From the IMG/VR virus record IMGVR_UViG_3300025083_003877, positions 1-30,485 of that record: a stretch of 30,485 nucleotides of DNA. The stretch is one strand, 5' to 3'. Of the stretch, positions 9,227 to 30,485 are shown in pieces (position 1 is the stretch's first letter; the number at the start of each line of letters is the position of its first letter). Position numbers and translations under genes: made by a program. Below the pieces are notes generated by a model. That model searched no databases, had not been told where the DNA came from, and worked only from the letters and a program-made list of their open reading frames with translations. This DNA comes from a virus.

Positions 9227-10014
9227 TAACTTCGACGAGGGTAGGAAGATATGGAAACCTCTGCAATAGCATGTTTCAGTTTGCAGCTGTATTGGGTATG
9301 GCCAAAAAATGCAATTATGAAGTAGCAATACCTCATAATAAAACGTATTATGATGTAAATTATGAATGTAATAATACATCTATCTTTGATGGATTTGATA
9401 TTAGCATACCAACTCTAGAATCAAAAACCTCAACATTTACAGAAGTTGAGTTTCCATTTCATTATGTTGATCATAAAGTGGACGACTTTACAGATATGGT
9501 TGGTTATTTTCAGTCTGAACGTTATTTTGAAAATGCTATAGAGGAAGTAAGAGCTCAATTTCAATTTAAACAAGAGATTAAAGATAGAATTGATCTTAGC
9601 AAATATCCAGAACCATCTAGATGTACGTCTCTGCATATTAGATTAGGGGATTATATGAAAAAGAGACATCACCATCCTGTGTTGCCTCCCTCTTATTGGC
9701 GAAATGCTGTTAAAAAGGCAGGCTTAGATCACATTGTTATTTTTTCAGACGATAGTGAGCATGCTAAACGAATGTTTGGTGAATCAGATCAGATAGTTTA
9801 TTCAACAGAGAAAGACCCGTTTGAAGCGCTCTACCACATATCATTATGTAGAAATAATATTCTTTGTAACTCAACGTTCGGTTGGTGGGGAGCATGGTTA
9901 GGTGAAAATAAGTCAATTGATAAAGTTGTTGTAGCTCCGGAAATATGGTTCGGACCCGGGCATAATTCCTTCAACCCTAAAGATATTATTCCAAACAGAT
10001 GGCTAAAGCTTTAA
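9223..10014 (+). CDS. Alpha-1,2-fucosyltransferase-like glycosyltransferase (GT11)
   Basis: A 263-residue protein. RYGNLCNSMFQFAAVLGMA (9-27) matches the N-terminal GxGNxxFQ motif of GT11. LHIRLGDYMK (about 137-146) is the HxRxGDY motif that binds GDP-fucose. CNSTFGWWGAWLG (about 216-228) is the third conserved motif (NSTFSWW). The family transfers L-fucose, or a close analogue, from the GDP sugar in alpha-1,2 linkage to galactose-type acceptors. It sits next to a GT10 gene, and GDP-fucose-type synthesis genes follow, so donor and transferases are encoded together. It starts by ATGA overlap. Confidence 0.9.
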   Translation: MITSTRVGRYGNLCNSMFQFAAVLGMAKKCNYEVAIPHNKTYYDVNYECNNTSIFDGFDISIPTLESKTSTFTEVEFPFHYVDHKVDDFTDMVGYFQSERYFENAIEEVRAQFQFKQEIKDRIDLSKYPEPSRCTSLHIRLGDYMKKRHHHPVLPPSYWRNAVKKAGLDHIVIFSDDSEHAKRMFGESDQIVYSTEKDPFEALYHISLCRNNILCNSTFGWWGAWLGENKSIDKVVVAPEIWFGPGHNSFNPKDIIPNRWLKL

Positions 10015-10817
10015 AAATATATTTACAAGATTCTGCTTTTGCGCATTGTATATTTTCTAATAATCCAATGCCACCTAAGCAGCTTACAGATAAAGTTGAA
10101 TGGGTAAGAGAGGATACGTATAGTTCTGAGGATATTGTTGTCTGGACAGATATAGATATTCCATCTGCACTTTACAGACCTAGTTCAAACATTGCATGGT
10201 TGATAGAGGCGTGGGATCACATACCACACTTGTATAATTTTGTTCAAACAAATTCAAATAAATTTAAAGCTATCTGGACTCATGATAAAGTTCTTTTAGA
10301 AACGTGTCCTAATGCTGTTAAATTACCTTTTGGTGGTTGTTGGATTGATGAGTTTGATTGGGGTATACATAGTAAAACGAAAGAGTTTTCGATTATTGCA
10401 TCAGCAAAAAGGCAGCATCCTGGCCACATTCAACGTCATCAAATTATTGCTGGTGTGGACAGTAGAGTGGACGTATTCGGTGGAGGCTATAAATTTTTAA
10501 AAGATAAAATTGAGGGGCTTAGAGATTATAGATATCATTTTTGTATAGAGAACATTAAACGTGATTATTGGTTTACTGAAAAACTTATAGACTGTTTTGT
10601 AACTGGTACTATACCTTTATACTGGGGATGCCCCTCTATCGGTGATTTTTTCAATACAGACGGTATGATTTGTTATGATGAGGTAAAAGAGTTACCTGAT
10701 ATCTTGCAAACTTGTAATAAGGAATTATACTTAAGTAAAATGGACGCTATAAAAGAAAACTTTGAATTAGCTAAAAAGTATCGACTAGCGGAAGAAACAA
10801 TACCAGATATTATATGA
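9999..10817 (+). CDS. Alpha-1,3-fucosyltransferase-like glycosyltransferase (GT10)
   Basis: A 272-residue protein. The key block is YHFCIENIKRDYWFTEKLID (about 179-198), then FVTGTIPLYWGCPSIGDFF. This is the GT10 alpha-1,3-fucosyltransferase donor-binding motif (FxIENS...YVTEKL...G.VPVYWG). The N-terminal half is the acceptor-binding domain, with no signal peptide or membrane anchor, so it acts in the cytoplasm. It overlaps the GT11 gene by 16 bases, and its stop overlaps the GDP-fucose synthase start (ATGA). GT10 enzymes use GDP-L-fucose; related GDP-deoxy sugars are possible given the ColD-like gene nearby. Confidence 0.88.
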   Translation: MAKALKIYLQDSAFAHCIFSNNPMPPKQLTDKVEWVREDTYSSEDIVVWTDIDIPSALYRPSSNIAWLIEAWDHIPHLYNFVQTNSNKFKAIWTHDKVLLETCPNAVKLPFGGCWIDEFDWGIHSKTKEFSIIASAKRQHPGHIQRHQIIAGVDSRVDVFGGGYKFLKDKIEGLRDYRYHFCIENIKRDYWFTEKLIDCFVTGTIPLYWGCPSIGDFFNTDGMICYDEVKELPDILQTCNKELYLSKMDAIKENFELAKKYRLAEETIPDII

Positions 10818-11719
10818 AAATATTAGTTACAGGAGGAACAGGAATGGTTGGTCAACATCTACAAGAGATGTTCGCGCCGGATGAAATTTGGCATGGTAAG
10901 GTTATATTTGTTGGTTCAAAGGATTATAATCTTACTAAAAAGCTTGATGTAAGAAATATGTTTGCAAAGTATCAACCTGATACAGTAATTCATCTTGCGG
11001 CTAAAGTTGGTGGTATTCAAGATAATATAGCAAACCCAGTAGAGTTTTTACAAGATAATCTCTTAATAAATTCTAATATAGTTCTAGAAGCACAAAAATA
11101 TAATGTAAAGAAATTTATTGGTATTGGCAGTACGTGCGCTTATCCGGATAAAGTAGAAAATTATCCAATGACTGAAGATATGCTTCATATAGGAGAACCT
11201 GCTTCTTCTAACTTTGGGTATGGTTATGCAAAAAGAATGCTTACAGTACACCTTAAAACTATACGTGAAAGTAAAGGGTTAGATTATTTTACAATCTTTC
11301 CGAGTAACTTGTATAGTGAGTTTGATAATTTTGAAGATGATACAAAGGCTCATTTTGTGACTGCACTACTAAGGAAGATTAAAAATAGTGATGGTACTGT
11401 TCCTTTATTAGGTACCGGTACACCTTTACGTCAATTTATTCATGCTGAAGATCTCGCAAAGATTATTATGAAATGTCTTGATAGAGTAGTTAAGACAGAC
11501 TTTAATGTTTGTGATGATAATAAATCAATTAGAGATATTGCTGGCGCTGCTCTTTATGCTACTTTTAATAAACATCTTGAATTAAAATTTGATAATGATA
11601 AGCTTAAGGATGGTCAATATAGAAAGGATTGCTCTAATAAAAAGTTGCTAGAACTTTTTCCAGGATTCCAATTTATTCCTCTTGAAAATGGGCTGCAACG
11701 AGTTTATAATGCTCTTTAG
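10814..11719 (+). CDS. fcl: GDP-L-fucose synthase-like epimerase/reductase (Fcl/WcaG, or ColC-type)
   Basis: A 301-residue extended SDR protein. VTGGTGMVGQHL (5-16) is the NADP-binding GxxGxxG. HLAAKVGGI (about 60-68) and GSTCAYP (about 105-111) are diagnostic of the GDP-fucose synthase family. YGYAK (about 137-141) supplies the YxxxK catalytic pair. It would epimerise C3/C5 and reduce C4 of GDP-4-keto-6-deoxy-D-mannose to GDP-L-fucose. The related enzyme ColC makes GDP-L-colitose from the 3-deoxy analogue, and the ColD-like neighbour leaves that open. Its substrate would come from the GMD-like enzyme encoded 2 kb downstream. It is directly followed by thyX with no gap (TAG then ATG). Confidence 0.9.
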   Translation: MKILVTGGTGMVGQHLQEMFAPDEIWHGKVIFVGSKDYNLTKKLDVRNMFAKYQPDTVIHLAAKVGGIQDNIANPVEFLQDNLLINSNIVLEAQKYNVKKFIGIGSTCAYPDKVENYPMTEDMLHIGEPASSNFGYGYAKRMLTVHLKTIRESKGLDYFTIFPSNLYSEFDNFEDDTKAHFVTALLRKIKNSDGTVPLLGTGTPLRQFIHAEDLAKIIMKCLDRVVKTDFNVCDDNKSIRDIAGAALYATFNKHLELKFDNDKLKDGQYRKDCSNKKLLELFPGFQFIPLENGLQRVYNAL

Positions 11720-12340
11720 ATGAATACGGTTGAGCTTTTAGGACATTATGGATCAGACGAAATAATCGCATGTAGTGCATGGACGTCAACTAGTAGAGAA
11801 TTAGATGAAAAGAAGAGAGAGAGAATTCCGAAGCTCATCAACATGCTTTGGCGCGAGGGACACGAAACCCCTTTTGAGAAGGGTAGCGTCCATTTCCTTG
11901 TTGATTGTGATATTGCCAGTCATATTCATTTACTTAAGCATAGACTATCTTCGCTTAATGCTGAGTCAGCGCGATACAAAGAATTAAAAGAGGATAAGAC
12001 CTTTATTCCGGACGATTGGCCAGAAGAATGGAAGATAGAACTTGAAGTTTATACGGCAGCAGGCAATACTTTATATCATGAGGCTATTAAAGCGTTAGAA
12101 CCGTCTCTTGGACGTAAAAGAGCTAAAGAAAGTGCGCGCTTTTTTAAGACCTATAATAGTAAAATTCAATCTGATATTATGTTTAACATGAGAAGTTTTG
12201 CTAACTTTCAAAAGCTTCGTAATAGTGAGCATGCTCAAAAAGAGATTCGTGAAATTGCTCAACAAATGATTGATCTTGTTAGGGGAATACCTGATAATCC
12301 TTTTAAGCATACACTTGCAATCTGGGAAAAGACGTTATAA
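11720..12340 (+). CDS. thyX: Flavin-dependent thymidylate synthase ThyX
   Basis: A 206-residue protein. The ThyX motif RHR-x7-S is present as KHRLSSLNAESARY (about 73-86), with Lys in place of the first Arg. ETPFEKGSVHFLVDCDI (about 49-65) and LRNSEHAQKEIREIAQQM (about 165-182) match the conserved N- and C-terminal blocks. ThyX methylates dUMP to dTMP using methylenetetrahydrofolate, FAD and NADPH, raising dTTP for phage DNA synthesis. It is oddly placed, tightly packed between two nucleotide-sugar genes of the glycan operon, and so is likely co-expressed with them. Confidence 0.92.
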   Translation: MNTVELLGHYGSDEIIACSAWTSTSRELDEKKRERIPKLINMLWREGHETPFEKGSVHFLVDCDIASHIHLLKHRLSSLNAESARYKELKEDKTFIPDDWPEEWKIELEVYTAAGNTLYHEAIKALEPSLGRKRAKESARFFKTYNSKIQSDIMFNMRSFANFQKLRNSEHAQKEIREIAQQMIDLVRGIPDNPFKHTLAIWEKTL

Positions 12341-12341
12341 T
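12315..12341 (+). promoter_or_regulatory. Possible internal sigma70-like promoter
   Basis: TTGCAA (12315-12320), 15-bp spacer, TATAAT (12336-12341), 6 bases before the ATG at 12348. It lies at the end of thyX. The geometry matches the other early sites except for the shorter spacer. Confidence 0.4.
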
Positions 12342-12347
12342 AAATCT

Positions 12348-13511
12348 ATGGCAATCAATCTAGTATCAGATACTATTGATAAAGAAGACGTCGCTAATTT
12401 AGTCGACTGGCTCACTCAAGAGGAAATCCCACAACTTACTAAAGGTCCACTTACTAAAAAATATGAAACTAAATTCTCTAACTGGCTTGGTACTGCCAAC
12501 TCTGTGTTTGTCAATTCTGGTTCATCCGCTATTTTGCTTGGTCTTACTGCTCTCAAGTTTGGAGGAAAGCTAAAAAATAATAAGATTGTTGTTCCAGATG
12601 TTAGTTGGGCTACTGATGTAAGTACTCCTCTTATCCTAGGAATGGAAACTCTTATTGTTGATTGCAATCAGGAGGATCTTTCAGCAGATCTATATCATCT
12701 TGAGTCAATTTTTAGAGAGGAGAAGCCAGCGGCATTTATTCTAGTATCTGTTCTTGGCTTAGTTCCAAATATGGATCGAATTGTTAATCTTTGCAAAGAG
12801 TATGATGTTTTATTAATTGAAGATACCTGTGAGAGTATGGGTTCAGAGTATAAGGGTCAAAAGCTTGGAACCTTCGGATGTATGAGTTTTTTCTCTACTT
12901 ACTTTGGGCATCACATCTCAACCATTGAAGGTGGTATGATTGCTACTAACGATAAAGAAATTAATGATCTGCTTCTTATGATACGATCACATGGTTGGGA
13001 TAGAGACCTTGATGAAGCAACTGCTAAAGAACTTGCAGAGAGAAATAATATTAAAGACTTTGATAGATTGTTTACTTTCTATCTACCTGGTTTGAATGTG
13101 AGAGCTACAGATCTTCAAGCGAAGATTGGTCTTAATCAAGTAGATAAAATTGATAGATTTGCAAAGATTCGGAATAATAACTTTCATAATTATAATGATT
13201 GGTTAAAATATTCGTCTAATATATTTACACCAACTGAAAGAGAAGGTGATTTTGTCTCTAGTTTTTGTTATCCAATTATTTTACAAGAACGTGATAAGTG
13301 TATTGCCGAGCTAAAAGCTAATGATATTAATTGTAGACCACTTATTGCTGGATCACTAACAAGAAGTCCAATGTGGAAAAACTTCGGTGGGATGGAGGTT
13401 AACAATCCTAATGCAGAAACTGTACATGAATATGGTTTTTATGTACCTAATCATCAAGGTATGAGTGATCAGGAAGTGGAACAAATTTGTAACATTATTA
13501 AAAAATATTAA
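12348..13511 (+). CDS. colD: ColD-like PLP-dependent sugar 3-dehydratase (DegT/DnrJ/EryC1 family)
   Basis: A 387-residue protein, about the same length as ColD (388). Key features are FVNSGSSAILLGL (54-66), the PLP-aromatic region WATDVS (87-92), the PLP-N1 Asp in IEDTCESMG (157-165), and YFGHHISTIEGGMI (185-198), where the usual PLP-binding Lys is replaced by His (H188/H189). In this family that Lys-to-His change marks dehydratases such as ColD and RfbH rather than aminotransferases. ColD removes the C3 hydroxyl of GDP-4-keto-6-deoxymannose with glutamate as co-substrate, yielding the 3,6-dideoxy sugar for GDP-colitose. RSHGWDRDL (about 212-220) and LPGLNVRATDLQAKIG also fit. I chose the ATG at 12348, just after the thyX stop, over the in-frame start at 12270. 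Confidence 0.85.
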   Translation: MAINLVSDTIDKEDVANLVDWLTQEEIPQLTKGPLTKKYETKFSNWLGTANSVFVNSGSSAILLGLTALKFGGKLKNNKIVVPDVSWATDVSTPLILGMETLIVDCNQEDLSADLYHLESIFREEKPAAFILVSVLGLVPNMDRIVNLCKEYDVLLIEDTCESMGSEYKGQKLGTFGCMSFFSTYFGHHISTIEGGMIATNDKEINDLLLMIRSHGWDRDLDEATAKELAERNNIKDFDRLFTFYLPGLNVRATDLQAKIGLNQVDKIDRFAKIRNNNFHNYNDWLKYSSNIFTPTEREGDFVSSFCYPIILQERDKCIAELKANDINCRPLIAGSLTRSPMWKNFGGMEVNNPNAETVHEYGFYVPNHQGMSDQEVEQICNIIKKY

Positions 13512-13512
13512 A

Positions 13513-14505
13513 ATGAAAACAGCACTAATAACTGGTATTAACGGTCAGGATGGTTCTTATCTAGCAGAGCTTCTTCTTGATAAGGGTTATGAGGTTTGGG
13601 GAACAATTCGTCGTAATTCTTCACCAGAATATAATACAACAAGAGTAGATCATATTTTTAGTCGAGTTAATATGGTCTATGCTGACTTAACTGATATGTC
13701 ATCAATAGTTAGTGTGTTGCAACAGGCTGAAGGTCCTGATGAGATTTATAACTTAGCCGCGCAATCTCATGTTCGTGTTAGTTTTGATGCTCCGATATAT
13801 ACAGCTGAAGCTACTGGTCTCGGTACATTAAATTTACTTGAAGCAATTAGACTAACTTGCCCTAGTTCAAGAATATATCAAGCGTCTTCAAGCGAAATGT
13901 TTGGTAATAATATTGATAAAGATGGATTTCAGAGAGAAACTACTCCTATGGATCCGGTAAGTCCTTATGGTTGTGCGAAAGTTTTTTCATACAATATTTG
14001 CAATAACTATCGTAACAGTTATGGTATGCATATTAGTAATGGTATTCTATTCAATCACGAATCACCGAGACGCGGTATTAACTTTGTAACTAATAAAGTT
14101 GTTAACGGAGCTGTAGATATTAAGAATCGTCGTGCTAAAGAGATTGTACTAGGAAACTTAGAATCAAGCCGGGATTGGGGACATGCTAAGGACTACGTTA
14201 AAGCAATGTGGTTAATGCTTCAACAAGACGAGCCTGATAATTATGTATGTGCTACTGGTGAAACGCATACAGTACAACAACTTGTTGATTATACATTTAA
14301 TGCTTTAGGTATTTCAACTGATCTAGTTAAAACATCACAAAAGTTTGAACGGCCAGAGGAACTTCACCTACTCAAAGGAGACTCAACTAAGCTAAGAAAC
14401 AAGCTTGGCTGGAAGCCAGAATATAGCTTTGAAAAAATGCTCGATGAAATGATTTGGGTTGCTGCTAATAAAGATAATAAAGCTGTTGAAACTTACAAAC
14501 TTTAA
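13513..14505 (+). CDS. gmd: GDP-mannose 4,6-dehydratase
   Basis: A 330-residue SDR enzyme starting MKTALITGINGQDGSYLAEL; ITGINGQDGSYL is the GMD-specific NADP motif (GxxGxxG). SSSEMFG (about 126-132) with the catalytic Ser/Thr and Glu, YGCAK (about 152-156, YxxxK) and the FNHESPRRG block (about 177-185) are diagnostic of GMD. It converts GDP-D-mannose to GDP-4-keto-6-deoxy-D-mannose, the branch point for both GDP-fucose (Fcl) and GDP-colitose (ColD, ColC). The ATG at 13513 follows the previous stop by one base; the longer in-frame start (13465) would lie inside colD. No GDP-mannose pyrophosphorylase is seen in the window, so GDP-mannose probably comes from the host. Confidence 0.95.
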   Translation: MKTALITGINGQDGSYLAELLLDKGYEVWGTIRRNSSPEYNTTRVDHIFSRVNMVYADLTDMSSIVSVLQQAEGPDEIYNLAAQSHVRVSFDAPIYTAEATGLGTLNLLEAIRLTCPSSRIYQASSSEMFGNNIDKDGFQRETTPMDPVSPYGCAKVFSYNICNNYRNSYGMHISNGILFNHESPRRGINFVTNKVVNGAVDIKNRRAKEIVLGNLESSRDWGHAKDYVKAMWLMLQQDEPDNYVCATGETHTVQQLVDYTFNALGISTDLVKTSQKFERPEELHLLKGDSTKLRNKLGWKPEYSFEKMLDEMIWVAANKDNKAVETYKL

Positions 14506-14506
14506 A

Positions 14507-14929
14507 ATGTTTATATCACATCGCGGTAATTTAAATGGCCCAAATAAAGACGTTGAAAATCATCCCGACTACCTGATTGAAACCTTACAGCAAGGCTATA
14601 ATGTAGAGACAGATGTATGGTATCTTAAAGGTAATTACTATTTAGGACATGACTTACCTCAATATAAAATACAGATAGATTTTTTACTACAGCATAAATT
14701 GTGGTTGCATTGTAAAAATAATGCCGCATTTGTAAACTTATTAGAAGCAAAAACAAACTGCTTTTTCCAAGAAAGTGATTTAGTTGTATTAACAGGTCAT
14801 GGTTATAAATGGTACCATTCTGATAGTATAGATATGAATATTGAATATGATAGTAAAAGTGTTGTTGCAATTCCCAATCAACAATATAATATTAAAGATA
14901 TTAATATTTGTTCAGATTATTTACTATGA
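14507..14929 (+). CDS. Short PI-PLC/GDPD-like phosphodiesterase-fold protein
   Basis: A 140-residue protein. MFISHRGNLNGPNKDVEN (1-18) resembles the HRG....EN active-site start of the glycerophosphodiester phosphodiesterase superfamily. GYNVETDVW (about 31-39) matches the second motif (G.x.E.DV with catalytic Glu and Asp), and YYLGHD (about 44-49) is the third (HD). It is only about half the usual TIM-barrel length, so it may be a minimal or altered enzyme. It lies directly before a KdsC-like phosphatase (ATGA overlap), which suggests a step in making or recycling a phosphorylated glycan precursor; that role is inference. The start at 14507 is preferred to 14459, which would overlap gmd. Confidence 0.65.
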   Translation: MFISHRGNLNGPNKDVENHPDYLIETLQQGYNVETDVWYLKGNYYLGHDLPQYKIQIDFLLQHKLWLHCKNNAAFVNLLEAKTNCFFQESDLVVLTGHGYKWYHSDSIDMNIEYDSKSVVAIPNQQYNIKDINICSDYLL

Positions 14930-15447
14930 TTAAATTACTTATTTTAGATGTAGATGGTGTTCTTACCGATGGTAAGAAATACTACGATAATACAGGATTG
15001 GCAAAGTATAAAACGTTTTGTGATAAAGATTTTTCAGCTATTAAGAAATTTAAATCTGCTGGTGTAGAAGTAATTTTTCTTTCAGGGGATACTAATATTA
15101 ATGAGTCAATTGCAAAAAATAGGTTAATAGATTTTTATGCATCTAGAGGTGTATGTAAAAGCGCTTTCATAAACATATTTAAAAGTACATATGATATATT
15201 ACCTGATGAAATGTGTTATGTAGGTGATGATATTTTTGATTTAAATATTATGAAAGAAGTTGGGTATAGTTTTTGCCCCTCTGATGCTGTTAAAACAATT
15301 CGGGAATATTGCTGCGGTAATATTTTGAATAGAGTTGGAGGAGATAATTGTTTAGATAAGTTATTTGATGTATGTGAAAGTAGAAATATAATACCTCCTT
15401 TTGATGAAGAATTATTTTATAATTTAGATAAAGATGACAAGTTCTAA
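14926..15447 (+). CDS. KdsC-like HAD phosphatase
   Basis: A 173-residue HAD hydrolase. LLILDVDGVLTDGKKYY (4-20) is motif I with nucleophile D8 and acid/base D10, in the exact DVDGVLTDG form of KdsC and CMP-sialate-associated phosphatases. LSGD (about 52-55) is motif II, and YVGDDIFDLNIM (about 100-111) is motif IV. The cap-less C0 type and length match KdsC (about 188 residues). It would dephosphorylate a sugar phosphate before or within nucleotide-sugar synthesis. It overlaps the upstream gene (ATGA) and the kinase gene downstream by 14 bases. Confidence 0.88.
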   Translation: MIKLLILDVDGVLTDGKKYYDNTGLAKYKTFCDKDFSAIKKFKSAGVEVIFLSGDTNINESIAKNRLIDFYASRGVCKSAFINIFKSTYDILPDEMCYVGDDIFDLNIMKEVGYSFCPSDAVKTIREYCCGNILNRVGGDNCLDKLFDVCESRNIIPPFDEELFYNLDKDDKF

Positions 15448-16114
15448 CGTTACATTATATGGCCATTTGACATATGATACTATTTTTGATGGTAATAAAT
15501 CTTACGAAACAATTGGTAGTGTAGGTAACGTCTGGAAAGCTTTTATTAATTTTTCAAATAATATTAATGTTAGAATAGAACCAACGGAAATAGGAGAGGC
15601 TTTAATTTATGTCGATAAGGAAAAAGTTCGTCGAGCTTCGACAGCTACATTATCTGTAAAGACTAGAACCCCCTTCATACAAATATCGGATTGGTCACAT
15701 ATATTATACCTTAACCAGCTCAATGATTTAAGTTTTGTTAAAGAGGTATCCTTAACAAGTAAAAAAATATCTGCGGATATTTGTGCTGGTAACCCCCTTA
15801 AGGACTTGCAAGTTTTAAAGTATGTAGATTTACTTTTTATATCTGATGAAGACTTATGGATGCCTATAGAAGAACTCCGTAAATATGTTAAAGGTGATAT
15901 ACTTGTACATTATACATCTGGTAGCACATATTATGGGCAAGATACATTCTCAACGAAAGTAGAAGATATTTTGAAAGGTGTAAATATTCTTGGAGCAGGT
16001 GATACTTTTGCTGCAGCTACTATTACTAATTTGATTAGTAAAAAACCTGTTAAAGAAGCAGTTGCAATTGCACATTCTATGACATATAATTTAATTAAGA
16101 AGAATAATGAGTAA
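15434..16114 (+). CDS. PfkB/ribokinase-family sugar kinase, short form
   Basis: A 226-residue protein. GAGDTFAAA (187-195) is the PfkB signature 2, with D190 as catalytic base and the anion hole before it. TIGSVGNVWKAF (26-37) is a reduced form of the N-terminal substrate-binding GG..N.A motif. ISDED (136-140) corresponds to the N/SxxE metal site. It is shorter than typical ribokinases (about 300), with the lid region reduced. It would phosphorylate a sugar or sugar phosphate; the neighbours (phosphatase, isomerase, nucleotidyltransferase) make a nucleotide-sugar pathway the best guess, similar in logic to heptose activation (isomerase, kinase, phosphatase, nucleotidyltransferase). Confidence 0.8.
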   Translation: MTSSNVTLYGHLTYDTIFDGNKSYETIGSVGNVWKAFINFSNNINVRIEPTEIGEALIYVDKEKVRRASTATLSVKTRTPFIQISDWSHILYLNQLNDLSFVKEVSLTSKKISADICAGNPLKDLQVLKYVDLLFISDEDLWMPIEELRKYVKGDILVHYTSGSTYYGQDTFSTKVEDILKGVNILGAGDTFAAATITNLISKKPVKEAVAIAHSMTYNLIKKNNE

Positions 16115-17279
16115 AGTTAATATTTTAATACCTATTGCTGGTAAAGGACAGAGGTTTGTAGACGCTGATTATGCAATGCCAAAACAACTTATAATGGTAG
16201 GTGATACGCAAATGATTGATTTAAGTCTTGAGTCAATTGATAATAAGGATGAGTGTAATCTTATTTTCTGTATACGACGTGACCATGTAAGTGATTACTC
16301 GCTCGATACTATTTTAAAACAACGGTATGGTGATGATATTAAAATTATTATTTTAGATAAAATTACCCGGGGTTCTGTAGAAACATGTTTAATGGCTGAA
16401 GATCATATTAATAATGATGATCCACTGTTAATTTATACTTTAGATGTTTTCTTTGAACCGTTCTTTGACCCGATAAAAATTGATACCTCGGTTGATGGTA
16501 CTATTCTTACATTTAAAAGTAATAATAATGGATATAGTTATGCAAAATTAGATGACAATAATTTGGTTACACGAACTGCTGAAAAGGAAGTTATAAGTGA
16601 GAATGCTGCTGTGGGAGTGTATACGTTCTCCAAAGGTTCAGATTTTGTAAAATATGCTAAGGTAATGATCGATCAAGATATTACCACCAAAGGAGAATTT
16701 TATATCTGCCCCTTATACAATCTAATGATTGAAAACGGCAAGCGTATTACTATTGAAGAGGTTAATAAAATGCATTTGATGGGTACACCTAGTGAGCTTG
16801 AGTTTTTCTTAACTCATACACTAGTTAAATTTGGTGATAAACCTATTGCTATTTGCGCAGATCATTCCGGATTTAATCTTAAAAATCAAGCATGTGAGGT
16901 TTTAGATGCGCTTGGTATACGTTATGTTGATTATGGTACATTTGTAAATAAAGATTGTGATTATAATGATTATGTTTCACAAGCAGTTGAAGCAGTTAGT
17001 CGTGGTTATAGTGATCATGTTATTGCGTTTTGCCGAACAGGTCAGGGGGTTAATATAGCTGGTAATAAATATAAAGGTATTAGAGCAGCATTGATATCTG
17101 ATGAATATACTGCTGAGCATGCAGTAAGACATAATTGCGCTAATTATTTTTCTATACCAGCGAGAACTGTAGATAAAAAAATGTTCGAACTCATAATTAA
17201 CATTTTACAAGTAACCACGTTTGATGGTGGTAGACATATTCCAAGAATAACTAAAGCTGAATCAAATGAAAAAGTATAA
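16107..17279 (+). CDS. Fusion: sugar nucleotidyltransferase (N) + RpiB/LacAB-type sugar-phosphate isomerase (C)
   Basis: A 390-residue two-domain protein. Residues 1 to about 235 form a nucleotidyltransferase: IPIAGKGQRF (9-18) is the NTP-binding loop (GxGxR variant), MPKQL (24-28) follows, and TLDVFF (111-116) has the metal Asp. Residues about 245-375 form an RpiB domain: AICADHSGFNLK (248-259), DYGT (275-278), FCRTGQGVNIAGNKYKGIRA (308-327) with the catalytic Cys309, and the RHNCANYFSIPARTVD C-terminus. RpiB isomerises aldose and ketose 5- or 6-phosphates. Both halves keep their key residues, so both are probably active. The fusion would couple the first and last steps of one nucleotide-sugar pathway. 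It overlaps the kinase gene by 8 bases and the cupin gene by 14. Confidence 0.9.
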   Translation: MSKVNILIPIAGKGQRFVDADYAMPKQLIMVGDTQMIDLSLESIDNKDECNLIFCIRRDHVSDYSLDTILKQRYGDDIKIIILDKITRGSVETCLMAEDHINNDDPLLIYTLDVFFEPFFDPIKIDTSVDGTILTFKSNNNGYSYAKLDDNNLVTRTAEKEVISENAAVGVYTFSKGSDFVKYAKVMIDQDITTKGEFYICPLYNLMIENGKRITIEEVNKMHLMGTPSELEFFLTHTLVKFGDKPIAICADHSGFNLKNQACEVLDALGIRYVDYGTFVNKDCDYNDYVSQAVEAVSRGYSDHVIAFCRTGQGVNIAGNKYKGIRAALISDEYTAEHAVRHNCANYFSIPARTVDKKMFELIINILQVTTFDGGRHIPRITKAESNEKV

Positions 17280-17589
17280 TATAAAGGATATGGTAAATGG
17301 TTGGGTAGTTGGCAACTTTGATCCTTCAGTGTTAAAGACTGAAAAATTTGAAGTAGGTTATCATAAGTATAAGAAAGGGGCCCCGACGCAAAATCACTAC
17401 CATAAAAAAAGCACAGAAATTAATATTGTCGTTTCTGGAGATGTTGAAATAAATGGTGAAAGATTTCGTGAAGGTGAAATATTTGTACTTGAGCCATATA
17501 CTGTATCAGAGTCATCTTTTCATAAGAATACAGATTTAATTGTGATTAGAGATGCATCTTATACAGATGACAAATATATCGTAAATTAG
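17266..17589 (+). CDS. Small cupin-fold protein
   Basis: A 107-residue single-domain cupin. HYHKKSTEINIVVSGDVEI (about 43-61) is cupin motif 1, with two His and a Glu as metal ligands; GEIFVLEPYTV (about 68-78) and the later His (about 85) form motif 2. Small cupins in sugar clusters act as isomerases or epimerases, or as sugar-binding proteins; the role here is not readable. It overlaps the fusion gene by 14 bases, so it belongs to the same cassette. Its stop codon overlaps a late-type motif for the next gene. Confidence 0.8.
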   Translation: MKKYNIKDMVNGWVVGNFDPSVLKTEKFEVGYHKYKKGAPTQNHYHKKSTEINIVVSGDVEINGERFREGEIFVLEPYTVSESSFHKNTDLIVIRDASYTDDKYIVN

Positions 17590-17595
17590 TAAATA
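17588..17595 (+). promoter_or_regulatory. Putative late promoter AGTAAATA
   Basis: AGTAAATA ends 6 bases before the ATG at 17602 and overlaps the previous stop. The spacing fits other late motifs within one base. Confidence 0.4.
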
Positions 17596-17601
17596 TAGTA
17601 A

Positions 17602-18264
17602 ATGAATAAAGCTATCGTCATATTTGGTCAGCAGAGATTTGTAGATAAGGGTATATACTCTTTTAGAAAAAATATTGTGGATTTTGAGGAGTATGACATT
17701 TTTATCCATACTTGGAAAGACGAAAGTAAAGATGAAAGTGTTATATATGACTTATGGAACCCAACAGATATTATAATTGAAGAACCTAAACCTTTCGACG
17801 GGCCTGATTACGAGGTAACTCACAAATCTCTTTTTTATAGTACTAAACGAGGATTTGAACTTTTAAATAAATCAGATAAAAAATATGACGCAGTTATAAG
17901 AACAAGATTTGATATGTGTGTTGAAACACCTATCGATATTACAGCTTATGATTTGACACAATCTGCAATATTTTCACCTGATGTTTGTGGTAACCCTGCC
18001 GTATTATCTGATTTCTTAATGTTTGGTAGTGGTAATTGCATGAACATTTATCAAGAGATGTTTGATGATTATGAAAAATATAAAAGAGAAGGTGTACATG
18101 TTGGTGCTGGAGAAGAAATAATTAACCGAGCTATTTACGATATGGCATATACAAAAGTAAAAACTAACCATGAAGTATATGGTATAAGACCGGTCGGTCA
18201 TTATTGTTCTACATACTGGACAAACGTTGATAATCCTATAGTAACTAAGTATTTGCCTTCTTGA
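17602..18264 (+). CDS. Putative glycosyltransferase (WavE-like)
   Basis: A 220-residue protein. It starts MNKAIVIFGQQRFVDKGIYS, followed by YDIFIHTWKD (about 31-40) and DAVIRTRFDMCVE (about 95-107). The FGQxR, DIFIHTW and IRTRxD pattern is that of a group of uncharacterised glycosyltransferases around the WavE/LPS family, in which RxRxD takes the place of DxD. HVGAGEEIINRAIY near 167-180 is a plausible catalytic or acceptor region. Its position among glycan genes supports this. The specific donor is unknown. Confidence 0.65.
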   Translation: MNKAIVIFGQQRFVDKGIYSFRKNIVDFEEYDIFIHTWKDESKDESVIYDLWNPTDIIIEEPKPFDGPDYEVTHKSLFYSTKRGFELLNKSDKKYDAVIRTRFDMCVETPIDITAYDLTQSAIFSPDVCGNPAVLSDFLMFGSGNCMNIYQEMFDDYEKYKREGVHVGAGEEIINRAIYDMAYTKVKTNHEVYGIRPVGHYCSTYWTNVDNPIVTKYLPS

Positions 18265-18280
18265 TATAGTACTATATACT
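18253..18280 (+). promoter_or_regulatory. Possible sigma70-like early promoter
   Basis: TTGCCT (18253-18258), 16-bp spacer, TATACT (18275-18280), 9 bases before the ATG at 18290. Confidence 0.45.
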
Positions 18281-18289
18281 AACAGAGTA

Positions 18290-18871
18290 ATGATTATAGA
18301 ACAAGACATATATGATGGATCTTTAATTCATAACCGATTTGCGTATGAATATTTTCGTAAAGATGTTTCACCCGTCGGTAATATTGTAGCGTTTCGCGCT
18401 CCGATGGAAGTTAAAGACAATCTTATTGATTTGGAGGATACTTTAACTGATGATTTTATCTCGTCAAAAGATGCAATTAATTTTTGCTGGGAGATTCCTA
18501 ATATGTGTCCGTTGGGTGCGGTATCTTTTCAACGTTTATTTAACACTGCAGTAGCGCAAATTATTTCTGAATACATTAAGCTTCCTATTACAATGAAAGG
18601 TGATGATCTTATGGTAATAGATAAGTTTACAGGTTCTGATGGTGAAGAGCGTGATCAAGGTAAGGTAAGTGTATCGATTACATATAGTAAGGACAACGTT
18701 ACTCTTGGTCATACAGCACTTAATATTGATGCAGGTAAAGATGCCCCTGGTTTTGCATACTCTTCAAAGCTATCAGATGAAGACGCGGAAAGTTTTATGA
18801 TCAAAGTTTGCAATTACTTTAATTACGAAATTAGAGATCAATTTGTAGCTACTACAAAAGTAATTGTATAA
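18290..18871 (+). CDS. DUF366-like conserved protein
   Basis: A 193-residue soluble protein. IYDGSLIHNRFAYEYF (7-22), the AFRAPMEVKDNLIDLEDT region (about 34-51) and FCWEIPN (about 65-71) resemble the DUF366 family (pfam04017), which I recall as having a lipoate/biotin-ligase-like fold. That recall and the fold link are uncertain. SFQRLF (about 79-84) and HTALNIDAG (about 141-149) could contribute to a ligand site. No function is assigned. It has its own early-type promoter, and its stop forms TAATG with the next start. Confidence 0.65.
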   Translation: MIIEQDIYDGSLIHNRFAYEYFRKDVSPVGNIVAFRAPMEVKDNLIDLEDTLTDDFISSKDAINFCWEIPNMCPLGAVSFQRLFNTAVAQIISEYIKLPITMKGDDLMVIDKFTGSDGEERDQGKVSVSITYSKDNVTLGHTALNIDAGKDAPGFAYSSKLSDEDAESFMIKVCNYFNYEIRDQFVATTKVIV

Positions 18872-24007: not shown

Positions 24008-25792
24008 ATGGCTGATACTTCTCCAACAAATGACGGTAGAGCTGCTACGTTTGGCAGAAATCTAGTGAGTTATATCTCAAATAGATTACCGTACGCAAGT
24101 CAACAAGACGATCAACTCAATACGAAGTATAAGTACTTTGCAAAACATGGTACACAAAGGGCAGAAGCGTTAGCGAAAGCATCCGTTACATCTTCTAACC
24201 CGTACAATAATATACCTATCGGTGATTTTGGTAAAGATGGTTCTTTCCAGGATGTAATGTACGCATCTCTAGATGCTAATAAAAGTGGTCGGTTACGCGA
24301 CTATCGTATTATGGCAGCTTATTCTGAAGTATCAGATGCTTTAGATGAAATCTGCGACGAGTGTATTAATATTGATGAAAGTGGACGCGCAGCTAAAATT
24401 CACTACGAAAATATTGATCTTTCAGTAGATGATAAGAAAGGGTTAGATGAAGAGTTTGATAAATATGTTGATTTTTTCGAACTTAGATCAAAAGGTTGGC
24501 AGTATTTTCGTCAGTTGTTAGTTGAAGGTGAAGTCTTTTTTGAGCTTATTTTACATGAAGATTATACTCAAGAAGGTGTTTTAGGGTTAATGAATATTCC
24601 AGCGGAAATTGTCGACCCCGTTTATAACAATATTCAAAATATGCTTGTTAAAGGGTATATTTACAAAAAGCCAATTTTTAGCACCACTCAACCTGAAAAA
24701 ATAGAGAAAACTGAAATGATTCCAATGGAGCAAAATCAGTTAATTTATGCTAATTCAGGTGTATATAACGATACAAAGGATTTTGTAGTACCGTTTTTGG
24801 AGAATGCACGTCGACCATATCGTCAACTATCCTTAATTGAAGATGCAATTGTTATTTACCGACTAGTGAGGGCGCCAGAGCGTTTAGTATTTAACGTCGA
24901 TGTTGGTAACATGGCGCCACCTAAAGCAGAAGCTTATTTGCGCAAGCTTATTCAGAATTACTGGTCTAAAAAGACGTTCGATAATGATCAAAGTAGTGTA
25001 GTTAATAAGTTTAATCCACAATCAATGCTTGACGCGTTTTGGTTTGCTAAGCGTCAAGGGTCTGAGGGTACTTCTGTTACACAGCTTCCAGGAGGTGCTA
25101 ACCTTGGAGAGTTAGCTGACTTAATGTACTTTATTAAGAAGCTGTATCGATCACTTAAAGTACCGGCAACACGTATTGATCCAGAAGATCGTACAGTTGA
25201 TCCATCAAGTATCTTACGGGAAGAACTTAAGTTTGCAAAGTTTATTATTAGGCAGCAGCAGCGGTTTGCGACTGCAGTTAAGAGAGGATTTATTACCCAT
25301 CTTAAATTAAAGGGCTTATGGAAAGAGTTAGAGTTGGTTGAAACTAATCTAGAGGTTATCTTCAACCCACCAACTAACTATTTTGAAATGCGTGAGTCTC
25401 AGAAGTTAGAGCTTAAGGCTGGTAACTTTAATACCCTTGCGAGTAATGAATTTATATCTGTTACTTATGCACAGAAAAAGTATCTTGGTTGGAAGGATCG
25501 TGATATTCTTGCTAATAGAGAGTTCCTTCGTAAAGATGCTGAAATGCAATGGGAGTTATCTCAGATTCAAGCTGCGGGACCAATGTGGAAAGAGCAGCTA
25601 GCTGCCACCGCAGGAGCTGAAGCAGAAATTGGCGGCGAAGGTGGTGGTGTTGCAGGTGGCGGGGATGGTGGTATTCCTGAGTTTGGTGGAGGTGGTGCAG
25701 CAGATACAGGAGAAGCTGATACAGCAGATGCAGGAGCAGAAGAATTAGATGCCGCAGCTGACCTAGGGCCGGATGCAGGAGCTGATACGTAA
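24008..25792 (+). CDS. gp20: Portal vertex protein gp20
   Basis: A 594-residue T4-type portal protein. Landmarks are LRDYRIMAAYSEVSDALDEI (about 96-115), KGWQYFRQLLVEGEVFFELI (about 160-179) and ATRIDPEDRTVDPSSILREE (about 389-408), all highly conserved in gp20 of T4-like phages. It forms the dodecameric ring at the head vertex through which DNA is packaged, and nucleates prohead assembly. The last 70 residues are a low-complexity Gly/Ala/Asp/Glu tail, longer than usual and probably disordered. It ends just before a bidirectional terminator. The neighbouring gene order differs from T4 (see findings). Confidence 0.97.
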   Translation: MADTSPTNDGRAATFGRNLVSYISNRLPYASQQDDQLNTKYKYFAKHGTQRAEALAKASVTSSNPYNNIPIGDFGKDGSFQDVMYASLDANKSGRLRDYRIMAAYSEVSDALDEICDECINIDESGRAAKIHYENIDLSVDDKKGLDEEFDKYVDFFELRSKGWQYFRQLLVEGEVFFELILHEDYTQEGVLGLMNIPAEIVDPVYNNIQNMLVKGYIYKKPIFSTTQPEKIEKTEMIPMEQNQLIYANSGVYNDTKDFVVPFLENARRPYRQLSLIEDAIVIYRLVRAPERLVFNVDVGNMAPPKAEAYLRKLIQNYWSKKTFDNDQSSVVNKFNPQSMLDAFWFAKRQGSEGTSVTQLPGGANLGELADLMYFIKKLYRSLKVPATRIDPEDRTVDPSSILREELKFAKFIIRQQQRFATAVKRGFITHLKLKGLWKELELVETNLEVIFNPPTNYFEMRESQKLELKAGNFNTLASNEFISVTYAQKKYLGWKDRDILANREFLRKDAEMQWELSQIQAAGPMWKEQLAATAGAEAEIGGEGGGVAGGGDGGIPEFGGGGAADTGEADTADAGAEELDAAADLGPDAGADT

Positions 25793-25803
25793 ACACCAAA
25801 AAA

Positions 25804-25821
25804 GCCGCTCCTAGGAGCGGC
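25804..25821. terminator. Bidirectional rho-independent-like terminator
   Basis: A perfect 18-bp palindrome, gccgctcctaggagcggc, forms a 7-bp GC-rich stem with a CTAG loop. Six A residues precede it (25798-25803), giving a six-U tract for leftward transcription. To the right follows a weaker CTTGTT for the portal transcript. It separates gp20 from the convergent small gene. Confidence 0.85.
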
Positions 25822-25840
25822 CTTGTTAAATTAATATCAA

Positions 25841-26020
25841 TTATAGACTATCGTCCCAAACCAAGATAAGGTTAGAGCCACGATTTTCTAAAATTTGAGT
25901 GAGTACAGCACCACTAGTAGGTACTACAGTAGTATTGATAAAATCTGCGAGATAAGCCTCAGTGTAACGACCATCTGGTTGCCCACTTGTTGCTGGAACT
26001 ATAGTTACTTGGTAAGCCAT
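25841..26020 (-). CDS. Tiny leftward late gene, 59 residues
   Basis: A 59-residue protein starting MAYQVTIVPATSGQPDGRYT and ending ILVWDDSL. Support for reality comes from a late promoter ATTAAATA exactly 5 bases before the ATG, a strong leftward terminator 20 bases after the stop, and coding-like composition. It is predicted mixed, with a short amphipathic helix (EAYLADFINTTV) and a final beta strand. No family was recognised. It lies between the portal and neck genes on the opposite strand and may be a small virion protein. Apart from this gene, its promoters and the terminator, the 300-bp gap between gp20 and gp13 holds nothing else I can see. Confidence 0.65.
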   Translation of the reverse strand: MAYQVTIVPATSGQPDGRYTEAYLADFINTTVVPTSGAVLTQILENRGSNLILVWDDSL

Positions 26021-26025
26021 ATCAA

Positions 26026-26033
26026 TATTTAAT
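26026..26033 (-). promoter_or_regulatory. Late promoter ATTAAATA for the tiny leftward gene
   Basis: ATTAAATA on the minus strand, 5 bases before the ATG at 26020. Confidence 0.6.
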
Positions 26034-26084
26034 ACTTTGTATCTTATATACCATAACTTTTAGGTACCTTTTTTGAGGTAGTGG

Positions 26085-26092
26085 ATTAAATA
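26085..26092 (+). promoter_or_regulatory. Late promoter ATTAAATA for gp13
   Basis: ATTAAATA ends 5 bases before the ATG at 26098. It is divergent from the identical motif at 26026-26033. Confidence 0.6.
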
Positions 26093-26097
26093 ATTGT

Positions 26098-27249
26098 ATG
26101 GCATCTGCATGTGAAATAACACCTCTTTCAGCTTTCCTATCAACTAATCTTAATAATAAAATTGAAACGTATAATAGATTAGGTGATAGAATTAAAAGAG
26201 CTTTAGGCTATCCTGTTGTATCTTTAGAGATACATTCCGACCAGCTTAATGAAAATATTCAAATCGCAGTTGAATATTATACACGGTTTGCTGGTTATAC
26301 ACGTGAATACATGATTTTTGATTCTAACTTATATGAGACAAATAAAGGTATACGATTAGATCTTCTTTATACTCTTGCGAATACTGACTTAGATACAACT
26401 GCTAAAAAAATTGCAGGTACCAATCCACTAGGACCAAGTTCAGAGTTTTATGGTGAGACGCCTGATATTGTTTATACTGCTGAATCAGATGTATTATCAT
26501 CTGTGTTCGCGAGTTCATCTGCTTTATCGGCAGACTTTGCAGATGGTGTTAATGAAGGAGAATTATTCGATCACACGCTCGTTAATACATTAACAACCTT
26601 TGACGAATCTTTATCTGGTACGTTTATTGCTAATCAAAGGCGCACATTATCACGTGGAGGGTCTACTAGTAGTATGACAACGTATCAAAATGTATATGAT
26701 TATGATATAATGGATTACAGAAAGGTTATAGCTGTTACGGACTTTGAAGAAGGTTCAAATACTGGTATTAATACATTATTTACTTTAGAGCAGACTATGG
26801 CACAACAAACGTACTTCTCATATGCTATGGGTAATTATGGATTTGATCTAGTGTCTTGGTATACTCTTAAAGAATTTATTGATACACGCGAAAAAATGCT
26901 AGCCCTTAAACGAGATCTTGTATTTGATGAGCGGTCTCAATACTTAAGAATTTATCCGCAACCAAAACATGAGCGCTTTTACGGTGTAGTTTCCACTTAT
27001 TTAGAGCGTTCAATACGTGATGTAATTAAAGAGCAGTGGGTGTATGAGTATGCATTAGCCCTATCAATGGTTACTATCGGTCGAGTAAGAGGTAAGTTTG
27101 GTCAGGTTAGTTTACTTGGTGGAGGTTCTCTCAACTATGATTTATTGCAAGAAGGTCAGCAACGTAAAGCAGAGCTTGAAGAAGAGCTTATGACAGGGGC
27201 AACATCTGGATTTGGTAGTAATGATCCTGTTGGATTTATTGTTGGTTAA
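26098..27249 (+). CDS. gp13: Neck protein gp13-like
   Basis: A 383-residue protein. LGDRIKRALGYPVVSLEIHS (about 28-47) and DQLNENIQIAVEYYTRF (48-64) match the N-terminal block of T4-type gp13 (I..RLGAP...VE.T.DQ......A...Y). EQWVYEYALALS (about 313-324) and the tail LLGGGSLNYDLLQEGQQRKA...EEEL...GFIVG match its C-terminal signature (LPGG...DG..L...A......L.EEL...FGILVG). gp13 with gp14 completes the head for tail joining. The middle (about 95-210) is longer than in T4 gp13 (309 residues) and Ser/Thr-rich. Its last base is shared with the gp4 start (TAATG). Confidence 0.8.
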   Translation: MASACEITPLSAFLSTNLNNKIETYNRLGDRIKRALGYPVVSLEIHSDQLNENIQIAVEYYTRFAGYTREYMIFDSNLYETNKGIRLDLLYTLANTDLDTTAKKIAGTNPLGPSSEFYGETPDIVYTAESDVLSSVFASSSALSADFADGVNEGELFDHTLVNTLTTFDESLSGTFIANQRRTLSRGGSTSSMTTYQNVYDYDIMDYRKVIAVTDFEEGSNTGINTLFTLEQTMAQQTYFSYAMGNYGFDLVSWYTLKEFIDTREKMLALKRDLVFDERSQYLRIYPQPKHERFYGVVSTYLERSIRDVIKEQWVYEYALALSMVTIGRVRGKFGQVSLLGGGSLNYDLLQEGQQRKAELEEELMTGATSGFGSNDPVGFIVG

Positions 27250-27694: not shown

Positions 27695-27702
27695 CATAAA
27701 TA
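27695..27702 (+). promoter_or_regulatory. Late promoter CATAAATA for gp21
   Basis: CATAAATA ends 5 bases before the ATG at 27708. Confidence 0.65.
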
Positions 27703-27707
27703 TACGT

Positions 27708-28389: not shown

Positions 28390-28397
28390 AATAAATA
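28390..28397 (+). promoter_or_regulatory. Late promoter AATAAATA for the small core gene
   Basis: AATAAATA ends 5 bases before the ATG at 28403. Confidence 0.55.
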
Positions 28398-28402
28398 ACA
28401 AT

Positions 28403-29421: not shown

Positions 29422-29444
29422 TTTAGTTTGATTCATAAACATTG

Positions 29445-29480
29445 AGGCATTCGGTGCCTGAGTCATTTGGGGTTACCCCA
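29445..29480 (+). promoter_or_regulatory. Two tandem RNA hairpins between gp22 and gp23
   Basis: Hairpin 1 has stem AGGCA/TGCCT (29445-29449 and 29455-29459) with loop TTCGG. Hairpin 2 has stem TGGGG/CCCCA (29468-29472 and 29476-29480) with loop TTA. Neither is followed by a U-run, so they are poor terminators. They may stabilise or partly end the gp22 transcript, or protect the 5' side of gp23 mRNA. The role is inferred. Confidence 0.6.
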
Positions 29481-29486
29481 TTACAT

Positions 29487-29494
29487 TATAAACA
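29487..29494 (+). promoter_or_regulatory. Possible late promoter TATAAACA for gp23
   Basis: TATAAACA differs by one base from TATAAATA and lies 23 bases before the ATG at 29518. Unlike the other late sites it would give a leader of roughly 15-20 bases. Confidence 0.45.
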
Positions 29495-29517
29495 AAAATA
29501 TATTAACTTAGAAAATT

Positions 29518-30485
29518 ATGAATAAACCACAATCATTTATTGATAAAGATCGCGCTAATGCCCTCTTGGAAAAGTGGGCTCCAGTGCTTGATTATACATC
29601 CGATTCCGTTAAGGCAATCGACGATGCTCACACCCGTTTAAACACGGCTGTTCTCTTGGAGAACCAAGAGAAATGGTGCTTGGAAGAGTCTAACTCCGCT
29701 GGTGGCGGTGCCCTTGGTGGTGCTGCACAAGGCGGTGTTCAGTTCAACCCAGCTTCGCAAATTGGATCCGGTGATACTTACGCACCTAACGATGCTCGCC
29801 TTCCTAAGGTGCTCATCCCGATGATCCGTCGTACATTCCCTGAGCTCATTACTAACGATATCGTTGGTGTTCAGCCCATGAGTGGCCCAGTTGGTCTTGC
29901 ATTCGCTTTGCGTTATGCTTACCAGTCTGATTCACTTGGTACTGGTGTCGATGGTAAATCTACTCCTTCCGAAGGAGATGGTGTTCCATATAATGGTTCA
30001 GCTAGCCTTCCGAACGCGGAACTTGGTTATCAGCTTCTTGATACTCGTTTCACTGGTGCATCCGGTGACAACCAGCTTTCAGGTGCTACTGGTTACTGGG
30101 ATTTCAACGGTAACGACCAAGGTGTTGCACAGATTCTCTCTGCTTTTGAGATTACTGGTAACATCCCGCAGGTTGAAGTTAAGTTCGAAAAGACAGCAGT
30201 TGAGGCCGGTACACGCCGCCTTGGTGCTCGTTGGTCCGTTGAGCTTGAGCAAGACCTTAAGAACATGAACGGCATCGACATTGACGCTGAGATCACTAAT
30301 GCAATGAGCTACGAGATCCAAGCTGAAATCGATCGTGAGATGCTCATGCGCATGATCCAAGCTGCACTTGGTGCTGGTTATGGTCCAGGTTTCTCGGTCT
30401 GGTCACCTGCTTCTGCAGATGGTCGCTGGCTCGTTGAGCGTAACCGTGACTTCTATCAGCGTTTGATTATCGAAGCTAACCGCAT
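29518..30485 (+). CDS. gp23: Major capsid protein gp23, 3' end outside the window
   Basis: The reading frame is open from the ATG at 29518 to the end of the window (322 full codons). LPKVLIPMIRRTFPELITND (about 95-114) and GVQPMSGPVGLAFALRYAY (about 116-134) are hallmark gp23 blocks. So is the EAGTRRLGARWSVELEQDLK stretch (about 209-228), followed by EIQAEIDREML. CLEESNSAGGGALGG (about 54-68) is a likely gp21 cleavage region that removes the N-terminal delta domain. gp23 builds the hexameric head lattice and in T4 needs gp31/GroEL to fold. Codons here are markedly richer in third-position C than in neighbouring genes, as expected for very high expression. Confidence 0.97.
   Translation, partial: MNKPQSFIDKDRANALLEKWAPVLDYTSDSVKAIDDAHTRLNTAVLLENQEKWCLEESNSAGGGALGGAAQGGVQFNPASQIGSGDTYAPNDARLPKVLIPMIRRTFPELITNDIVGVQPMSGPVGLAFALRYAYQSDSLGTGVDGKSTPSEGDGVPYNGSASLPNAELGYQLLDTRFTGASGDNQLSGATGYWDFNGNDQGVAQILSAFEITGNIPQVEVKFEKTAVEAGTRRLGARWSVELEQDLKNMNGIDIDAEITNAMSYEIQAEIDREMLMRMIQAALGAGYGPGFSVWSPASADGRWLVERNRDFYQRLIIEANR

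Follow-up and report, generated by a model that had tools for sequence, protein, structure and literature searches.

The 59-residue gene that lies leftward between the portal gene and the gp13-like adaptor gene of this uncultured, T4-like virus, whose hosts are marine bacteria, is under strong purifying selection, with dN/dS of about 0.1, and the site that it occupies is an old slot with exchangeable genes, mostly leftward and sharing the same promoter layout. In this layout a late-promoter motif ends 5 nt before the start codon, and from the spacing we infer that many late genes of the lineage, the major capsid gene excepted, have leaderless mRNAs. The joint explanation, that the 59-aa ORF is a true late gene, occupies an exchangeable slot and is expressed from a leaderless mRNA, appears to us reasonably probable. 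The window, by which we mean the whole stretch of DNA analysed, is a 30,485-base virus record with 35% GC. Its main features are the following.

24008..25792, plus strand: gp20 portal protein (phrog_213, 2.5e-103), left flank of the cassette site
25798..25824, minus strand: terminator-like hairpin (25824-25801) with U6 tract, directly beyond the portal stop
25841..26020, minus strand: 59-aa gene of the short family, 59 codons, ATG start, predicted beta-alpha-beta-beta fold
26033-26026, minus strand: late-promoter motif ATTAAATA, ending 5 nt before the ATG of the 59-aa gene; predicted transcription start 26020
26085..26092, plus strand: mirror late motif ATTAAATA, ending 5 nt before the gp13 ATG
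26098..27249, plus strand: gp13-like protein (head-tail adaptor Ad2; phrog_211, 4.4e-18), right flank of the cassette site
27695..27707, plus strand: late motif CATAAATA + 5 nt, preceding the ATG (27708) of the gp21-like prohead protease
28390..28402, plus strand: late motif AATAAATA + 5 nt, preceding the ATG (28403) of a 54-aa gene
29422..29518, plus strand: gap upstream of the major capsid gene, a counter-example; 96 nt without TAAATA, ATG at 29518

Spacing of the late motif

When every hexamer was scanned at 40 spacings (0–39 nt) before the first ATGs of the ORFs, TAAATA placed 5 nt before the ATG came out on top both in the lineage (254 cases against 1.14 expected, among 1068 ORFs) and in the window (9 cases against 0.05 expected, among 61 ORFs). 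An anagram control with 15 hexamers in the lineage gave 270 for TAAATA and 31 for the next one, AAATAT, which can overlap TAAATA. Since the lineage counts are not independent, near-copies were allowed for by sorting into 39 protein families those ORF starts that have TAAATA within 40 nt, and this family table provides the safer figure: the modal spacing is 5 nt in 20 of the 39 families, 6 nt in five, 7 nt in two and some other value in 12. Leaderless genes are recognised by a promoter element clustered at one short distance from the start, and the 5-nt peak is such a cluster. The motif stands at 5 nt in all 41 short-family starts, and 77 of 81 gp13-family starts have the modal spacing of 5. 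Portal starts carry TAAATA at 6–8 nt in 51 of 65 cases (the portal motif of the window, AATAAATA, ends 7 nt before the ATG), and 9 of the 30 long-family starts have it at 6 nt, so that some leaders would be 1–3 nt long.

The octamers ATTAAATA and NATAAATA found upstream of virion genes are TATAAATA-like, as in T4-type late promoters. In T4, KVP40 and Syn9, as here, the TAAATA core of TATAAATA/NATAAATA precedes virion genes (PMC1524935, PMC2984593), and the late consensus described for cyanophage S-PM2 is NATAAATA (PMC2984593). Mere occurrence is not the signal: the octamer ATTAAATA alone is not above chance in the window (5 found, 7.2 expected), and sigma-70-like sites are uninformative (38 found, 38.7 expected). 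The divergent gap between the ATGs of the 59-aa gene and gp13 is 77 nt long and contains TAAATA exactly once on each strand, in both cases at 5 nt. A sequence-only reading of this DNA had pointed to a perfectly spaced late motif and to two identical divergent motifs, and both are there, ATTAAATA lying exactly 5 nt before the ATG with its mirror copy 5 nt before gp13 on the other strand. What that reading took for a special mark of one tiny gene, its full regulation, does not distinguish it: the promoter layout recurs at gp13, at gp21 and at many of the lineage's other genes; the unusual part of the regulation, which it had not noted, appears to be the absence of a leader.

The rule covers many late genes but not all. 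TAAATA at 5–7 nt is missing from the gp4-like head-closure family, whose genes abut (73 members), from the family whose gene precedes gp23 (63 members) and from every one of the 35 members of the major capsid family (identified by phrog_138, 1.4e-84 in L082); given the capsid genes, the layout is not universal. The major capsid gene may be a leadered exception or may be read from an upstream promoter. Its upstream gap in the window (29422-29518), unlike those of its late neighbours, holds small palindromes and is without TAAATA. Judged from its distribution, the TAAATA element would be a promoter rather than a ribosome signal, as it is absent from the abutting gp4-like and pre-gp23 families and matches the T4/S-PM2 late consensus. 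A start context (A at -3, pyrimidine at -1) was also considered as a feature separating the motif genes and was rejected, the difference in raw counts having vanished once families were weighted equally. Elsewhere in the window, a minus-strand ORF at 7601 is listed from a GTG at 7811, and the ATG at 7601 has TATAAATA 5 nt before it; by the spacing rule the listed start is suggested to be too long.

Coding evidence for the 59-residue gene and its terminator-like hairpin

The proposed 59-residue minus-strand gene at 25841-26020 is borne out. Its product has 19 full-length relatives in IMG/VR, with 92–100% identity, and two partial ones, and the differences between the genes are mostly synonymous. 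Comparison of the window gene with L017 gave synonymous/nonsynonymous differences of 15/7 (dS 0.48, dN 0.054), with L018 20/7 (dS 0.76, dN 0.054) and with L059 26.2/17.8 (dS 1.32, dN 0.146), that is, dN/dS of 0.07–0.11. The frame is thus conserved and visibly under purifying selection.

The hairpin at 25824-25801 has 10 pairs, six of them G-C, followed by a six-T run on the leftward strand past the stop of the 59-aa gene, and it is the longest terminator-like stem between 20000 and 30485, where there are 8 such sites with 5.0 expected. A different finder, applied to 4000 random 110-nt segments from the lineage, gave terminator-like sites in 22. Of the genomes sampled, a terminator is seen in 12 of 13 from the 59-aa subgroup (the window among them), in none of 10 from the 51–55 aa subgroup and in one of 14 from the long family. 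The strong U6 terminator noted earlier is present here as a terminator-like 10-pair hairpin with a U tract; among those sampled it belongs to one subgroup.

The cassette site

Of 135 related loci, 80 were retained when scanned with the gp13 of the window (gp13 identities of 66–100%), and the occupancy of the site was determined by a profile search of these 80 loci and the window, in which each profile matched its own group. A leftward gene stands directly upstream of gp13 in 69 of the 80 loci, so homologues do recur at the same site. It belongs to the short family (51–59 aa where complete) in 41 loci and to a long family (120–137 aa, beta-rich model), also on the minus strand directly upstream of gp13, in 28, with incomplete long-family copies in L057 and L119. 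The two families were found together in no locus among the 80; the long-family profile A3 matched 0 of 8 short-type records and the short-family profile A2 0 of 12 long or other records, empty answers that are weak, and the records are fragments. On the other side of the cassette a portal match lies within 1500 nt in 56 of the 69 loci. Of the 13 loci without it, several are on truncated contigs, and L072, L083 and L085 have different genes upstream, on the plus strand.

The remaining loci vary. In L104 and L110, both distant relatives, the interval between portal and gp13 is 43 bp with no gene inside, and a long-family gene is seen on the plus strand after gp13 (L104:7583-7921, L110:4609-4947). 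Another plus-strand long-family gene lies upstream among different genes in L108/L109:4434-4754. Other content occupies the site in L111, L112, L115 and L116, and a plus-strand open frame of ~266 codons precedes gp13 instead of the cassette in L111, L115 and L116, the one in L111 being a sulfotransferase (PF13469, 1.9e-16). L060, L065 and L079 are loci without upstream sequence.

The site has seen exchange. On the gp13 tree (80 rows, quick method) a minimum of 4 changes is needed between the short and long states, and of 7 over all four states, and L057, a long-family locus whose contig ends before the portal, falls in a starred 20-row set that is otherwise short and includes the window. Together with the occupancy of the site, this makes it a slot with exchangeable genes. 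A comparison of the short and long families as one protein family detected no similarity, although the profiles are shallow (hhalign probability 1.7%, E 0.028, 15 columns). Short-family subgroups outside the clade of the window are 40–55% identical to the window 59-aa protein, and short-family genes adjoin gp13 proteins 69–100% identical to that of the window; the family is therefore not a recent gain, contrary to what had been proposed. The idea of a useful accessory element fares better, in view of the purifying selection and the exchangeable cassette site, and its own late motif, its hairpin and its exchangeability speak for the label moron-like, though not for the recent acquisition that it implies.

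Protein products of the two cassettes

AlphaFold2 (17-sequence alignment) models the 59-aa protein as beta-alpha-beta-beta with a pLDDT of 78. Searches with it gave no Pfam family at E <= 10, a single PHROG match at E 0.13 and three INPHARED matches at E 8–9, and its profile found nothing better than E 1.7 among PDB sequences. The fold has no BFVD match at E <= 0.001 (best 0.035), and in the PDB its best Z is 4.7, with many ferredoxin-like folds including bS6 among the matches. Mimicry of bS6 was rejected: the hhalign probability against one Saprospira S6 is 0.3%, there is no Pfam match and the fold Z is only 4.1–4.5. A phage bS21 as the link to leaderless translation was likewise set aside, as Ribosomal_S21 was found in none of 16 lineage records (fragments), with a control search positive in 6 of 14 genomes, and the 59-aa protein is without a Pfam match.

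The long family is modelled as beta-rich and jelly-roll-like (pLDDT 69). It has 72 BFVD matches at E <= 0.001, no function being named among the 50 listed; the top Foldseek matches in the PDB are Bacillus Ena appendages (E 8e-4), the best Z, 8.5, is to the PM2 spike, and the best PHROG match (E 0.0047) is a member of unknown function. Position, late motif and the beta-rich alternative cassette together suggest, tentatively, that the 59-aa product may be a small virion or assembly protein.

Shine-Dalgarno sequences and the host

Shine-Dalgarno sites were counted as GGAG, GAGG or AGGA between -18 and -5 in ORFs of 150 or more codons. The lineage has no enrichment (19 of 445 starts, against 26 of 445 at the control position) and the window has none in 30 ORFs; the same count gave 27/74 in HTVC008M, 24/40 in Mosig, 18/35 in Melnitz, 21/34 in T4, 27/53 in KVP40, 11/46 in phiM12 and 2/15 in Syn9. 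The absence of enrichment fits a host that ignores Shine-Dalgarno sequences, such as Bacteroidota. Ribosomes of Bacteroidia are reported not to recognise these sequences (PMC9976891), and T4-like viruses of marine Bacteroidetes have been predicted (PMC7198788). The host is probably a member of the Bacteroidota, and the host match itself is a single-gene hint: among the first 13 matches listed for the GDP-mannose dehydratase-like protein at 13516-14502 (PF16363), nine are from Bacteroidota (eight at 63–69%, one at 57%), and the other 67 of the best 80 of 526 genome matches are mostly cyanobacteria at 51–58%. In Flavobacterium johnsoniae the majority of mRNAs are described as leadered (PMC6847099), so leaderless late mRNA would be a trait of the phage and not just a habit of the host.

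The region 8444-18871 of the window is a long block of apparent glycosyltransferase and sugar-nucleotide genes, most of them named by eye. Within it 10814-11716 and 13516-14502 match Epimerase/GDP_Man_Dehyd, and one protein of the block has its best genome matches in Saprospiraceae.

Comparison with known systems

In the textbook system of T4 late transcription, mRNAs have leaders and Shine-Dalgarno sites. TAAATA clusters there 23–29 nt before the ATG (~28 nt), with a Shine-Dalgarno sequence in between, while in the lineage described here it stands at 5 nt without Shine-Dalgarno enrichment. In KVP40 and Syn9 it is scattered, mostly at 18–38 nt with a few shorter cases, and Syn9 has few Shine-Dalgarno sites yet no 5-nt peak; nor is there such a peak in two 50-kb stretches of phiM12, where no case falls at 5 nt. 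The Pelagibacter phage HTVC008M resembles the lineage in that its strongest hexamer-spacing signal is TAAATA at 5 nt (10 cases against 0.11 expected, in 90 kb) and differs in having kept Shine-Dalgarno sites and in its portal and gp13 genes, which are not adjacent. Its relatives Mosig and Melnitz show no 5-nt peak (one case each, 50 kb). The ten ORFs of HTVC008M with TAAATA at 5 nt (L121/L125, NC_020484) include those for CsgF (7562), a DNA end protector (18916, minus), head closure (18943), a baseplate tail tube cap (19456) and a baseplate wedge (31132). A search for late promoters in pelagimyophages was reported as unsuccessful (PMC7029224).

Rhodothermus phage RM378 (L211-L213, NC_004735), which has a Bacteroidota host, carries TATTTAA followed by 6 nt and ATG at 11 ORFs. 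The motif differs from that of the lineage and there is some Shine-Dalgarno use (17/116, against 4/116 at the control position); TATTTAA is possibly a near-leaderless motif of its own. The TA-led genes of bacteria, as described in PMC3160421, are a further parallel, as a -10-like element ~10 bp before the start codon is read there as a sign of leaderless mRNA; that element is of the host sigma-70 type and serves cellular genes, in contrast to the phage late-promoter motif and virion genes here. Leaderless phage mRNA is itself not new, being known from lambda (cited in PMC3160421), and phage transcripts are described as often leaderless (PMC5312081). In phages predicted to infect Bacteroidetes, a small reverse-strand bS21 gene is reported among the terminase, portal vertex, prohead protease and capsid genes (PMC9723584), an arrangement reminiscent of the present one, although the 16 fragmentary lineage records, unlike those phages, have no Ribosomal_S21 match. 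Among the openly accessible, published papers covered, we found none on leaderless late mRNAs in T4-like phages.

Proposed mechanism and alternatives

In T4 the late motif is placed at -13 to -6 from the transcription start (PMC1524935), and with this geometry a gap of 5 nt would make the A of the ATG position +1; the predicted transcription starts thus use a position borrowed from T4. We propose that a T4-type late RNA polymerase, presumably with a gp55-like sigma, would recognise NNTAAATA in the 77-nt divergent region, at -13 to -6 on either strand. The leftward RNA would start at 26020 and the rightward one at 26098, each at the A of the ATG, and both the 59-aa gene and gp13 would then have leaderless mRNAs, as the spacing suggests. 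Ribosomes would bind the 5'-terminal AUG without Shine-Dalgarno contact, and the leftward RNA would be ~220 nt long, ending at the hairpin and yielding, perhaps, a small protein of the virion or of its assembly.

The same motif might instead be a translation-initiation enhancer inside a leader, with the real promoters further upstream and the mRNAs leadered. This would suit a Bacteroidota host: Bacteroidetes are described as lacking Shine-Dalgarno sequences, translation in F. johnsoniae is stimulated by adenines at -3 and -6, and leaders are present on most transcripts of that species (all PMC6847099); moreover, the family-level context at -3 and -1 does not tell motif from non-motif genes. 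Against it, the motif matches that of a T4 late promoter, neither the abutting gp4-like family nor the one preceding gp23 has it, and the divergent gap has one copy per strand, each at 5 nt, so we consider an enhancer unlikely. Nor do we favour a regulatory or antisense RNA with an incidental ORF. Its transcript would indeed head toward the portal 3' end, to which the stop of the small gene lies close in some relatives, and an antisense RNA is known in S-PM2 (PMC2984593), but the codon-level selection, together with amino acids conserved across subgroups 40–55% identical to the window protein, leaves this explanation very improbable.

A moron in the strict sense, recently gained with its own promoter and terminator and of a benefit unrelated to the virion, would account for the late motif, the hairpin, the opposite strand and the exchangeability of the gene. 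We nevertheless think it improbable, since the 59-aa family is old and widespread in the lineage, the promoter layout is ordinary there, the terminator is limited to one subgroup among those sampled and the model of the alternative cassette is jelly-roll-like and resembles many small phage proteins.

The reading that we prefer, leaderless late mRNAs specified by the position of the promoter, would extend beyond the 59-aa gene. We suggest, with some reserve, that this uncultured, T4-like and probably Bacteroidota-infecting lineage may have shifted a large part of its late regulon to leaderless mRNAs through a late motif fixed 5 nt from the start codon, so that late proteins would be made by initiation at a 5' AUG in a host which itself uses leadered, non-Shine-Dalgarno mRNAs. 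If this is true, a takeover of translation is encoded in promoter spacing, and HTVC008M is a cultured partial example. The spacing would also serve as a simple rule by which late genes and their start codons could be called in uncultured marine phages, and a T4 motif fixed at a distance that removes the leader would link the evolution of phage promoters to the preference of the host ribosome.
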